Below, piece by piece: positions 13,762 through 43,431 of a stretch of DNA of 64,000 bases; position 1 is the stretch's first letter, and each line of letters opens with the position of its first letter. Source of the DNA: Geomonas ferrireducens (GTDB lineage: Bacteria; Desulfobacterota; Desulfuromonadia; Geobacterales; Geobacteraceae); assembly GCF_004917065.1 (NCBI RefSeq), contig NZ_SSYA01000001.1, positions 1 to 64,000 of the forward strand. Direction: 5' to 3'. A program made the translations under genes and the position numbers. A model generated the notes under the pieces. That model did no database searches and was not told where the DNA came from. It saw only the letters and a program-made list of their open reading frames with translations.

Positions 13762-13885
13762 GTCGCCTCCCGTTTGAATTGGTTTTTTTTAATACATCTG
13801 GAAGGGAGTATACTCAGCTGGGGCGAGTTGGCAACCGTAATTCAACCAAAGGCGCGCCCCCTTCCCCCGACATGCTGGGCTTGGG

Positions 13886-14178
13886 GAGAGCTCTTGCACA
13901 CTGCGGGAGAGCTCTTGCACACTGCGGGAGAGCTCTTGCACACTGCGGGAGAGCTCTTGCACACTGCGGAAGACCTCTTGCACACTGCGAGAGACCTCTT
14001 GCGCACTGCGAGAGACCTCTTGCGCACTGCGGAAGACCTCTTGCACACTGCGAGAGACCTCTTGCACACTGTGGAAGACCTCTTGCACACTGCGAGAGAC
14101 CTCTCGCACACTGCGGAAGACCTCTTGCGCACTGCGGAAGACCTCTTGCACACTGCGGAGACCTCTTGCACACTGCGG
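13886..14178. repeat. Tandem repeat, 14 copies of a 21-bp unit
   Basis: The unit is close to GAGACCTCTTGCACACTGCG plus one base. The first four copies (13886-13969) are identical and carry AGAGCTCT. The next ten vary at a few positions, and the last full copy lacks one base. A decayed unit follows to about 14196. The unit is a multiple of three, so most frames stay open, but no frame has a ribosome-binding site or a protein-like composition. The gap 13762-14265 holds only this block and a terminator. Confidence 0.95.
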
Positions 14179-14206
14179 AGACCTTCTGCGATCTGGTCGT
14201 GCTGAC

Positions 14207-14849: not shown

Positions 14850-14878
14850 TTGACACGGCAAACGGTCCTTATTACATT
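14850..14878 (+). promoter_or_regulatory. Sigma-70 promoter of the first manganese riboswitch
   Basis: TTGACA (14850-14855) and TACATT (14873-14878) are separated by exactly 17 nt. Transcription would start near 14885, just before the aptamer. Confidence 0.75.
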
Positions 14879-14887
14879 GGCAGTAAA

Positions 14888-15025
14888 TAAAGGGGAGTAG
14901 TTATCGGTCACCGGAAAAGACCGATCCGGTTCTCGTCAATACGGCCTAAGGCCTGGGACCCGGAGCAGCAGAACGCCAACAAGACCTTTATCCAGGCACA
15001 TGCCCGGGTAAAGGTCTTTTTTTTT
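14888..15025 (+). ncRNA. yybP-ykoY manganese riboswitch with terminator
   Basis: The aptamer has the family landmark GGGGAGTAG (14892-14900) and a second conserved block with GGCCTAAGGCCTGGGA. The outer stem pairs TAAAGG (14888-14893) with CCTTTA (14985-14990). The same CCTTTA can instead pair with TAAAGG at 15009-15014 in a terminator ending in nine T (15017-15025). The two pairings exclude each other, so ligand binding should keep the terminator open and turn expression on. This family senses Mn2+ and commonly controls TerC/Alx exporters, which fits the downstream gene. Confidence 0.9.
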
Positions 15026-15061
15026 ATGCCACGGCAGATAAATGCCGACGGAGGAGTAAAA

Positions 15062-15202
15062 ATGAAGAGGTCGATGAAGGAAACAGTTACGAAGATAGGG
15101 GATCGCATCCGTGAGTGGCTGGACTCGTTGTTGCCCGTCGTTCTGCCGCCGGTCCCCGTCCCGGTACCGGTCAAAGATGACCGGCGCAGCCGCAATTCTT
15201 AA
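15062..15202 (+). CDS. 46-residue small protein under riboswitch control
   Basis: ATG at 15062 has GGAGGAG 5 nt upstream and the frame ends with TAA at 15200-15202. The protein has a basic amphipathic N-terminal half (MKRSMKETVTKIGDRIREWL), a short hydrophobic stretch with a PVPVPVPV run and a charged end. It begins 37 nt after the riboswitch terminator and ends 16 nt before terC. It should therefore rise with manganese together with the exporter. I do not recognise a family. A membrane-associated helper or a leader peptide are both possible. Confidence 0.7.
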   Translation: MKRSMKETVTKIGDRIREWLDSLLPVVLPPVPVPVPVKDDRRSRNS

Positions 15203-15217
15203 TTGGGGTGACATGCC

Positions 15218-16405
15218 ATGGAACTACTTCTTGCGACGATATTCTTGGGTAAGCCGATCTGGATGTGGCTTGTCTTTGTTGCTGTGGTTATCGTGCTGCT
15301 CGTACTCGACCTGGGAGTGCTGCACAAGGACCAGCATGAGATCGGCGTGAAGGAGAGTCTGCTGCTCTCCTCGTTCTACATCACCATCGCTCTCGCCTTC
15401 GGCGGATGGATCTGGTTCGAGATGGGAAGGGAGCCGGCACTGGAGTACCTGACCGGTTTCGTCGTCGAGAAATCGCTGGCGATGGACAATATCTTCGTCA
15501 TCGCCATGATCTTCTCCTTCTTCGCCGTTCCACGGAAATACCAGCATCGGGTGCTCTTTTGGGGCATCCTCGGGGTCATCATCCTGCGCGCCATCATGAT
15601 CGCGCTTGGGGCCACCCTCGTCTCCCAGTTCGGGTGGGTGCTTTACATCTTTGCGCTGTTTCTGCTGCTGACCGGATACAAGCTGCTGGTGCTGACCGAG
15701 GGAGCGCAGTCGGTGCTTGAGTCGTTCCGCGGCGCTCGTCACGCTGCCGCCATGGCCTGGGCAGTGGTTTGCACCGCCCTCGGGTTCGCCGCCTATGTCG
15801 GCATGGCGAAAAGCGGCGAAGGGGTCGCGGTCCAGGCTTCGGTCTACCTGCTCACCGCGGCGACTGCCTTGCTCGGGGGGAAGATTGCCTTTCTGACACA
15901 CCAGGAAGAAACGGATCTGGCGGGAAACCCCTTGCTCATGTGGCTTCGACGGCATCTGCGCGTGACCGATGCCATCGAAGGTCAGGATTTCAGCGTGCGC
16001 CTTCCCGATACCAGGTCAGGAAAGGTGGGCACCCATTTCACGCCGTTGTTCCTCACCCTGCTCATGATCGAGATCGCCGACGTGATCTTCGCCGTAGACA
16101 GCGTTCCGGCGATATTTGCCATCACCACCGATCCTTACATCGTCTACACCTCCAACATCTTCGCTATACTGGGGCTGCGTGCCCTTTACTTCGCCCTGGC
16201 AGCGATGATGGCGCGCTTTGCCTACCTCAAGTACGCGCTGTCCCTGGTCCTCATCTTCATCGGCTCCAAGGTGTTCATCTCCAATCTGATGGGATGGGAA
16301 AAGTTCCCGGCATCGTGGTCGCTGGCGATCACGTTGGGGCTGCTTGCAGGCGGGTTTGCATACTCGATCTGGAAAACGCGCGGGACGGACGCGCATGGCG
16401 GCTGA
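15218..16405 (+). CDS. TerC-family membrane protein (predicted Mn2+ exporter) with insertion
   Basis: This 395-residue inner-membrane protein belongs to the TerC family, whose Alx and MeeF-type members export manganese. The family signatures are EKSLAMDN (84-91) and DVIFAVDSVPA (288-298), whose acidic residues sit in the membrane. About 75 extra residues (roughly 159-233), with one or two more hydrophobic segments, interrupt the protein between the fourth helix and the NPLL loop. The paralogue at 42511-43431 lacks this insert. The upstream manganese riboswitch supports an export role. ATG at 15218 has GGGGTGACATGCC just upstream. Confidence 0.88.
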   Translation: MELLLATIFLGKPIWMWLVFVAVVIVLLVLDLGVLHKDQHEIGVKESLLLSSFYITIALAFGGWIWFEMGREPALEYLTGFVVEKSLAMDNIFVIAMIFSFFAVPRKYQHRVLFWGILGVIILRAIMIALGATLVSQFGWVLYIFALFLLLTGYKLLVLTEGAQSVLESFRGARHAAAMAWAVVCTALGFAAYVGMAKSGEGVAVQASVYLLTAATALLGGKIAFLTHQEETDLAGNPLLMWLRRHLRVTDAIEGQDFSVRLPDTRSGKVGTHFTPLFLTLLMIEIADVIFAVDSVPAIFAITTDPYIVYTSNIFAILGLRALYFALAAMMARFAYLKYALSLVLIFIGSKVFISNLMGWEKFPASWSLAITLGLLAGGFAYSIWKTRGTDAHGG

Positions 16406-41481: not shown

Positions 41482-41625
41482 TAAAGGGGAGTAGCCAACG
41501 GTTGAACCGCAACCGACCCGTGTTCGTCAAGACGGCCAAAAGGCCCGGACATGGGGCATGACAATCCTGTCGGCAGGCAAGACCTTTATCCAGTGCTTCA
41601 AGCGCCTGGGTAAAGGTCTTTTTAT
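41482..41625 (+). ncRNA. yybP-ykoY manganese riboswitch with terminator
   Basis: This second copy has the same GGGGAGTAG landmark (41486-41494) and a GGCCAAAAGGCCCGGA block. The outer stem TAAAGG (41482-41487) pairs with CCTTTA (41583-41588). A terminator can pair that CCTTTA with TAAAGG at 41611-41616, followed by T (41619-41624). The mechanism is as for the first copy, ON with Mn2+. The sequence between the landmarks differs, so it is not a simple recent duplication. Downstream genes are htpX and terC. Confidence 0.9.
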
Positions 41626-41658
41626 TTGACCAGTCCACGAGGCTCAGGAGGTAACGTC

Positions 41659-42498
41659 ATGAACAGATTCAAGACCGCAGTCCTGCTCACCACGCTCACG
41701 CTGATCATGGTAGCCCTGGGAAGCGCCATCGGCGGCCGGGGCGGCATGTACCTCGCCTTCTTCATGGCGTGCGTGATGAACCTCTTCTCCTACTGGTTCT
41801 CCGACAAGATCGTGCTGCGCATGTACGGAGCGCAGGAGATCACCGAAAGCGAGAACCCCGCCTTCTACGGCATGGTGCGCCGACTGGCGCTGCAGGGGGG
41901 GCTTCCCATGCCCAAGGTCTACATCATCCCGTCCGAATCCCCCAACGCCTTCGCCACCGGGCGAAACCCCGAACATGCGGCGGTGGCCGCGACCGAGGGG
42001 ATCCTGCGCATCCTCACCCCGGAGGAACTGGAGGGGGTGATGGCGCACGAACTAAGCCACGTGGCAAACCGCGACATCCTCATATCCACCATAGCCGCGA
42101 CCATAGCCGGCGCCATCTCCATGCTGGCGAACATGGTGCAGTGGGCCGCCATCTTCGGCTCCCGCAGTGACGATGACGAGGGAGGGGGATGGGGCGGCCT
42201 GGCACTCGCCATCATAGCCCCCATCGCCGCCATGCTGATCCAGTTGGCGGTGTCGAGAAGCCGCGAGTACCTGGCGGACGAGAGCGGTGCCAGGCTTTGC
42301 GGCAGGCCGCGCGCCCTCGCCAACGCGCTCAGGAAGCTGGACCAGGCCTCGCACGTCTTGCCGATGCAGGAGGCGCGCCCCGCAACGGCGCACATGTTCA
42401 TCGTGAACCCGCTGAGCGCCGGTGCCCTTATGAGGCTTTTTTCCACGCACCCTCCCATGGAGGAGCGGATCGCGCGGCTTGAACAGATGGAACGTTAA
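41659..42498 (+). CDS. htpX: Membrane zinc protease HtpX
   Basis: This M48 inner-membrane protease degrades misfolded membrane proteins. HELSH is at 130-134 and the third ligand Glu lies in [13 protein letters not shown]. Two N-terminal and two central hydrophobic segments are present, and the length of 279 matches the family. ATG at 41659 has AGGAGGT 5-6 nt upstream. It is the first gene after the second manganese riboswitch, with terC 12 nt downstream, so membrane quality control and Mn export would be induced together. Confidence 0.93.
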
Positions 42499-42510
42499 CC
42501 GGGGGGAGTT

Positions 42511-43431
42511 TTGACAAACAATGAGATGATGTGGATCGCCTTCGCGGTGATCATGACGGTGATGTTCGTTCTGGACCTCTTCGTCTTCAACCGGAAGAGC
42601 CATGAGATCAAGTTTAGGGAGGCGCTCACCTGGACCGTGGTCTGGATCGGGCTCGCCATGCTCTTCAACGCCGGGGTGTGGTACGTCCTTGGATCGGCAA
42701 AGGCTCTGGAGTTCTTCACCGGTTACATCATCGAGGAATCGCTCTCCGTCGACAACCTCTTCGTCTTCATCATGATCTTCTCCTACTTCAAGGTCCCGCG
42801 GGCGCTGCAGCCCAAGATACTGAAGTGGGGGATCATAGGCGCCCTGGTGATGCGCGGCATCTTCATCATGGTGGGGATCGGACTGATCGAGCGCTTCCAC
42901 TGGATGGTGTACGTCTTCGGCGTCGTCCTGATCTACACCGGGTTCAAAATGGCCTTCGGCGGCGACGAGGAGGTGCACCCGGAGAACAACCCGATGGTAC
43001 GCTTGGTCCGGCGCTTCGTTCCCATCACCAAGAGGGCGCGGGGCGACCGCTTCTTCATAAAAAGGCGCGGCATCTGGGCCGCCACCCCGCTCTTCCTGAC
43101 CCTGGTCGTGGTGGAATCAAGCGACGTGATCTTCGCGGTGGACTCCATTCCGGCGGTGCTCGCGGTCACCCACGACCCCTTCATCGTGTACAGCTCCAAC
43201 ATCTTCGCCATCATGGGGCTGCGCTCGCTCTACTATCTGCTGGCCCACGTCATGGAGATGTTCACCCATCTCAAACTGGGAGTGTCGGTCATCCTCGCCT
43301 TCGTCGGCGCGAAGATGCTCCTTTCCAACGTGGTGGAGATCCCGCTCGTGCTCTCCCTCGGCGTCATCATCGGCGCCCTCACCATCTCCATCCTGACGTC
43401 GGTGCTCCTGACCAAAAAGCAGCACAGGTAA
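42511..43431 (+). CDS. TerC-family membrane protein (predicted Mn2+ exporter)
   Basis: This 306-residue TerC protein has the usual length. The signatures EESLSVDN (about 75-82) and DVIFAVDSIPA lie in membrane helices and supply acidic metal ligands in the family. It starts at TTG (42511) with GGGGAG just upstream. It is the second gene of the riboswitch-controlled htpX-terC unit. The paralogue at 15218-16405 has the same core with a large insertion. Export of Mn2+ is known for riboswitch-linked TerC homologues and is inferred here. Confidence 0.92.
   Translation: MTNNEMMWIAFAVIMTVMFVLDLFVFNRKSHEIKFREALTWTVVWIGLAMLFNAGVWYVLGSAKALEFFTGYIIEESLSVDNLFVFIMIFSYFKVPRALQPKILKWGIIGALVMRGIFIMVGIGLIERFHWMVYVFGVVLIYTGFKMAFGGDEEVHPENNPMVRLVRRFVPITKRARGDRFFIKRRGIWAATPLFLTLVVVESSDVIFAVDSIPAVLAVTHDPFIVYSSNIFAIMGLRSLYYLLAHVMEMFTHLKLGVSVILAFVGAKMLLSNVVEIPLVLSLGVIIGALTISILTSVLLTKKQHR

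Follow-up and report, generated by a model that had tools for sequence, protein, structure and literature searches.

The leader upstream of an enlarged terC gene in Geomonas ferrireducens is very probably an alx-like yybP-ykoY Mn2+ riboswitch that would turn on a small protein and TerC by Mn2+-dependent antitermination. By homology the leader is a member of a known riboswitch class, and sequence comparison places it in a lineage-wide, alx-like subfamily found in most sampled Geobacterales (the order to which Geomonas belongs) and beyond. New here are the subfamily itself, which lies outside the reach of Rfam, its link to htpX, and the small protein.

Within the window, by which we mean the whole 64,000-nucleotide stretch of DNA that was analysed, positions 14850 to 16405 of the + strand form one unit consisting of promoter, leader, terminator, small ORF, and terC; our re-reading of these positions bears out an earlier note that had placed a promoter, a riboswitch, a 46-residue ORF, and TerC in a single unit. 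The sigma-70 promoter named there (14850..14878, +) consists of TTGACA (14850-14855), a spacer of 17 nt, and TACATT (14873-14878), matching 10 of 12 hexamer bases; TTGACA stands at the equivalent place in 5 of 5 related units, and the second hexamer varies. The window TerC is 94% identical to its counterpart in G001, 87% to that in G017, and 84% to that in G005, genomes which we take as Geomonas edaphica, Geomonas agri, and Geomonas paludis.

Structure and covariation of the leader

A search pattern drawn from L1, L3, and the 3' strand (GGGAGTAG, GTCAA, and AGACYTT, with spacings) matched 113 of 196 genomes, and the reversed pattern had a single match in each of 7 of these genomes. The loci examined held 108 distinct leader copies with 104 distinct 95-nt cores; removal of near-identical copies left 74, and setting aside L031 (kept as a test) together with L185 and L194 (which the pattern truncated) left 71 aptamers, which were aligned and made into a covariance model, R1, with the E. 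coli alx leader and L031 outside the training set. Because the anchors GGGAGTAG, GTCAA, and AGACYTT were set by the search pattern, their invariance in alignment A2 is no evidence.

RNAalifold on the 71 aptamers gave 28 pairs, 18 of them changed on both sides. The structure comprises P1.1, P1.2, P2, P3 (which carries the L3 loop), and a P4 region that varies, and is the four-way junction already known for the class. The cell statistics were taken over 29 pairs, one of them misplaced (columns 2-118, paired in 0 of 71, pulling helix 1 down to 82.9%, and absent from the 28-pair structure); on that basis 93.3% of the cells in the named pairs are paired, against 53-57% (at most 56.6%) when partners are slid by one base, and 243 cells have both sides changed, against a shuffle mean of 65.8.

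In the window the aptamer, so called by homology, spans 14887..14991 (+), as judged from covariation, single-sequence folding, and the R1 match. Covariation and single-sequence folding agree on P1.1 (14887-14893/14985-14991), whose outer part pairs TAAAGG (14888-14893) with CCTTTA (14985-14990), on P2 (14904-14909/14919-14924), and on P3 (14925-14946/14950-14964); P1.2 (14900-14902/14978-14980) comes from covariation, and P4, a 2-bp stub in this copy (14965-14966/14975-14976), from single-sequence folding, completing the P1-P2-P3-P4 junction of the yybP-ykoY class. The folding z-score of 14885-15026 is -3.85, and equally stable folds arose in 1 of 200 shuffles.

Both recognition loops of the class can be assigned. 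Crystal structures show Mn2+ coordinated by phosphates and by the N7 of a single L3 adenosine; L3 reads UCA41AU43UC in L. lactis and ACA48U49ACU52 in X. oryzae (PMC6754395). L1 of the window, GGGGAGUAG, occupies 14892..14900 and probably corresponds to L1 of those structures (PMC6754395), with A14896 as the likely equivalent of the cross-helix adenosine A10. L3, GUCAAUAC, occupies 14935..14942, and its core UCAAUAC, when set against UCA41AU43UC, suggests that A14938 corresponds to the Mn2+-binding adenosine (A41 in L. lactis, A48 in X. oryzae); with a putative Mn2+-contacting adenosine at this place, the window L3 resembles the L. lactis form, from whose core, UCAAUUC, it is one base apart.

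Sharing of a strand between aptamer and terminator

An intrinsic terminator occupies 14982..15025 (+), with a stem (14982-14997/15002-15017) broken by one mismatch and a run of nine T (15017-15025). A simple terminator scan of the window called no terminator here, presumably because it wants an unbroken stem and a loop of 3-8. The hexamer CCTTTA at 14985-14990 lies in the terminator's 5' arm and is at the same time the 3' strand of P1.1, so that P1.1 competes with the expression platform by strand sharing; by text pattern, the same overlap is present in 100 of 108 copies. The dual role of CCTTTA had been pointed out in the earlier note, and sequence and folding agree with it: single-sequence folding without the terminator gives an aptamer that forms P1.1, and with the terminator included the best fold contains the terminator and is 13.5 kcal/mol more stable than the fold in which P1.1 is forced, a gap that is thermodynamic, the switch itself being kinetic.

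The earlier note had also held that an ON response to Mn2+ could be read from the sequence, and the comparative evidence speaks for this, with ligand and direction carried over by homology from established work. In L. lactis, where the 3' strand of P1.1 is likewise shared with a terminator, Mn2+ stabilises P1.1 and blocks the terminator, and in the absence of ligand the terminator takes the 3' segment of P1.1 (PMC11087558). By analogy, RNA polymerase would start just 5' of the aptamer. At low Mn2+ the stronger terminator hairpin would capture the P1.1 3' strand (CCUUUA) and transcription would stop, making OFF the default; at high Mn2+ the ion would bridge L1 and L3, dock the two legs of the junction, and hold P1.1, the terminator would be kept from forming, and transcription would continue into the small ORF and terC. 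TerC would then export Mn2+ or supply it to exported proteins.

In many leaders (for example L136 near 1600-1660) a stretch after the T-run complements the 3' arm of the terminator (GCCGAGGGTAAA / TTTACCCTCGGC) and could, to judge from its sequence, re-pair that arm in readthrough RNA. We rejected this as a third switch state: the stem score is at least 18 in 74 of 107 loci, compared with 57% after arms were exchanged among loci and 13% after shuffling, and the figure for swapped arms indicates that the complementarity is mostly shared consensus. The score in the window copy is 12.

The enlarged TerC and the 46-residue protein

The last gene of the unit (15218..16405, +) encodes a TerC family membrane protein of 395 residues (Pfam TerC, PF03741, 161 bits against a cut-off of 27.8) with an extra two-helix hairpin evident from the alignment and in a structural model. 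That TerC is enlarged here, as already noticed, is borne out by seven aligned shorter forms (326-338 residues), all of which lack residues about 160-228. AlphaFold2, run on 31 sequences (mean pLDDT 80.6 for the best of five models, 61.5-78.9 for the others), models residues 171-199 and 203-224 of the insert as helices; by hydropathy the first scores as a membrane segment and the second does not. Among the best 120 of 8000 scored clusters, 41 (P0004-P0043 and P0053) align over 94% or more of the query, with identities of 58-95%; one more, P0044, is an apparent fragment of the enlarged form. The TerC profile found no solved structure at E<=0.01, nor did Foldseek find any PDB match at E<=0.001. 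Of 19 genus genomes searched, 4, including that of the window, have the enlarged TerC. One further candidate, on G026:C3 (65% over residues 70-160), was rejected, being by eye a TerC without the insert, and the leader pattern is absent from its locus, L195. Mn2+ export or delivery, as reported for other TerC members in PMC10550928, is by analogy the probable function of the window TerC.

Between terminator and terC, the small ORF runs from ATG 15062 to a stop at 15200-15202 (15062..15202, +), preceded by a ribosome-binding site GGAGGAG (15050..15056, +); a mechanical ORF list gives instead a 58-residue form from ATG 15026, which lacks the GGAGGAG site. The predicted protein of 46 residues, reported as such in the earlier note, has a conserved part made up of an amphipathic helix (hydrophobic moment about 0.6), then PPVPVPVPV, then a charged tail. 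It was unfamiliar to the author of that note and is unfamiliar to the databases as well: Pfam gave no match, and when 5.8 billion proteins were searched with a profile of six members, 10 clusters came up at E<1e-8, one of them that of the window protein itself. Of 117 genomes, 5 have the ORF at E<1e-10, and all 5 belong to the genus; outside the genus the same 117 genomes gave nothing better than E 0.018. Values of dN/dS are 0.11-0.47 over 10 pairs; given the shortness of the ORF and the saturation of synonymous changes in several pairs, they are rough. From its recurrence in these genomes and clusters and from the signs of purifying selection, the small ORF looks real. A weak Rfam match inside it, SECIS_4, was taken as chance.

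The small ORF might act as a leader peptide, with ribosomes slowing at PPVPVPVPV and so tuning translation of TerC 15 nt downstream. Ribosomes pause at consecutive prolines, an established phenomenon; the proline-rich stretch is present in 6 of 6 aligned members, and 15 nt separate the small-ORF stop from the TerC start. We nonetheless consider this role rather unlikely, given that the N-terminal helix is conserved too, that a hairpin between the 3' end of the ORF and the TerC ribosome-binding site can be drawn by eye in the two closest units only, and that in the genome G008 the small ORF sits behind a leader without TerC. There a leader of this kind precedes 17 codons with similarity to the end of HtpX (12 identities in 17, E 6e-5). 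The small ORF comes next, with no TerC after it, and no enlarged TerC was found in G008; the small ORF is thus not strictly tied to TerC.

Our conjecture is that the small protein, with a ribosome-binding site of its own, most likely has its place at the membrane and is induced by Mn2+ to assist export or envelope quality control; it is a candidate Mn2+-switched microprotein of metal homeostasis. It can be likened, by its proposed role, to E. coli MntS, a small protein of Mn2+ homeostasis; MntS is made at low Mn2+, whereas the window protein would be made at high Mn2+.

Class membership and the blind spot of Rfam

The earlier note had called for a covariance search with the Rfam yybP-ykoY model and had held that a below-threshold score would count against the riboswitch, and below threshold is literally what was found. 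RF00080 (Rfam 15, gathering cut-off 45 bits) does not match the window leader at the gathering cut-off or at E<=10, and finds nothing at E<=0.001 over the whole genome from which the window comes (81 candidates scored). The same model, however, also fails on E. coli: the alx leader is absent from its matches at E<=1, and mntP, at 41.6 bits, falls short of its cut-off. Since RF00080 misses alx and underscores mntP, its failure on the window leader is uninformative, a property of the model and not of the class, and we file the leader by homology to alx.

That homology was recovered by R1, which reports the alx leader, on which it was not trained, at 28.6 bits (E 1.8e-5 over 76 kb). L031, a leader before what is by eye a GDT1-type gene, scores 26.1 bits with R1 and 33 bits with RF00080, which calls it Manganese; mntP, another Mn2+ riboswitch of E. 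coli, is not reported by R1 at E<=10. Homology to validated members thus holds through alx, with mntP missed, and the original identification of a yybP-ykoY riboswitch stands on covariation and on the untrained alx match, despite the RF00080 negative. R1 also scores the window leader (14888-14990) at 86.6 bits and a second copy in the window at 84.2 bits, scores that prove nothing alone, both copies being in the training set.

The alx leader resembles that of the window in several respects: it has L1 (GGGGAGUA) and L3 (GUCAUUAC), the latter followed by a stem and CGG, the gene behind is a TerC-family Mn2+ exporter, and by eye GACCTT can pair with a downstream GAGGTC as a hairpin. The two differ in that the 3' hairpin region of alx is longer (28 nt are inserted in the R1 alignment) and has no T-run directly after the GACCTT hairpin, whereas in the window P4 is a stub and the terminator is formed by the shared hairpin itself. 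The L. lactis riboswitch controls yoaB, a P-type ATPase, whereas that of the window would control TerC. To our knowledge B. subtilis meeY (ykoY) has no small ORF or extra hairpin. It resembles the window unit in being a TerC-family gene under a Mn2+ riboswitch (PMC10550928).

A leader with the yybP-ykoY fold might sense some other ion or signal, as could be argued from its escaping RF00080, from the variation of L3 within the subfamily (UCAAUAC, UCAAGAC, and UCAACAC), and from the protease and Tim44-like genes among those downstream; we regard this as very improbable, because L1 and the predicted Mn2+-contacting adenosine are conserved, the targets include TerC and GDT1, and the untrained R1 match, alx, is an annotated Mn2+ exporter. 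Least probable, and scarcely to be entertained, is a plain attenuator or terminator that senses no ligand, a reading which would suit the strong terminator and the negative Rfam result, since attenuation needs no covarying four-way junction with a conserved unpaired core.

The Mn2+ riboswitch reading would apply well beyond the window. Under stricter filters R1 matches 98 of 117 related genomes and RF00080 2 of them, both below cut-off (with 20 candidates scored per listed genome), so that Rfam 15 annotation overlooks the leader in most sampled genomes. R1 further matches 85 of 146 genomes of the class and 13 of 99 in a phylum sample (nine outside the class), and makes four matches at E<=0.001 in the genome of the window. 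Geobacterales include metal reducers that release Mn2+ at their surface, which gives Mn2+ handling in this order practical interest. PMC3766115, a paper that names yybP-ykoY and Geobacter, states that it left the delta-proteobacterial lineage unanalysed.

Genes downstream of the riboswitch

The 3.8 kb (or the remainder of the contig) after 107 copies, all but L031, was compared by tblastn with eleven representative proteins; the copies had been chosen from part of the listed matches, by spread over genomes plus a few for the small ORF. The first recognised gene is most commonly HtpX (65 of 107, counting one upstream member of a tandem pair with HtpX beyond the second copy), a YkoY-type TerC is first in 14 and a ribbon-helix-helix protein in 12, and none was recognised in 3; the tblastn E cut-off missed 3 of 5 small ORFs, two before TerC and one in G008. 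TerC of any type lies within 3.8 kb at 65 of 107 loci and TerC, HtpX, or GDT1 at 87 of 107, and 43 of the 65 HtpX-first loci have TerC as well. When the six loci from the TerC search are excluded, HtpX comes first at 63 of 101 loci, and TerC and any of the three are found at 59 and 81 of 101. Counting from the first base of GGGAGTAG, the HtpX match begins after a median of 196 nt. The second copy in the window (41482..41588, +) follows this plan, lying upstream of htpX (ATG 41659) and of a terC (42511-43431, 306 residues) in a unit of 41482-43431. In the open-access literature we found no report of htpX under a yybP-ykoY or Mn2+ riboswitch.

Among the 65 HtpX-first loci, 57 have a match that spans 80% or more of HtpX; in the other 8 the match spans 10-64%, and htpX is therefore shortened there. 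Shortened or remnant htpX lies behind the riboswitch at L119, L126, L187, L190, L193, L196, L206, and L219, and in G008 (L155). The G008 remnant and the 8 shortened genes suggest, at the level of sequence, that the unit with the small ORF arose from an htpX operon through loss of htpX, and that the small protein is independent of the enlarged TerC that adjoins it.

In PMC10550928, HtpX co-purified with the TerC protein MeeF, and TerC proteins are proposed to metalate exported proteins. The pairing of htpX and terC under one switch bears on this metalation proposal and makes it testable in a new lineage. Tentatively, and with doubt outweighing belief, we suggest that in Geobacterales a lineage-specific Mn2+ riboswitch, which escapes present RNA annotation, ties Mn2+ to membrane protein quality control via HtpX and TerC, such that loading exported proteins with Mn2+ and clearing misfolded ones would form one programme, and that in a few Geomonas a decayed htpX may have been replaced by a new Mn2+-induced microprotein, mostly beside an enlarged TerC.

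Several loci depart from the common arrangement. At L154 (G000:C2:1474950-1479500, 219-1723) the genes behind the copy encode a ribbon-helix-helix protein (RHH_1, 29.1 bits) and a Tim44-like protein; small ORFs of this ribbon-helix-helix kind number 13, as clustered among the loci examined, and it would be unusual for a Mn2+ switch to govern a probable DNA-binding protein. L153 (G000:C2:223000-227500), the fourth copy of its genome, is followed by HtpX, a YkoY-type TerC, and, downstream, an ORF whose cluster by eye resembles an outer-membrane efflux protein. At L189 (G044:C82:20700-26050) two riboswitch copies lie 981 bp apart, and the only ORF listed between them has 132 codons. Elsewhere in the window, positions 13884-14184 hold a tandem array of a 21-bp unit in 14.4 copies, open in several frames.
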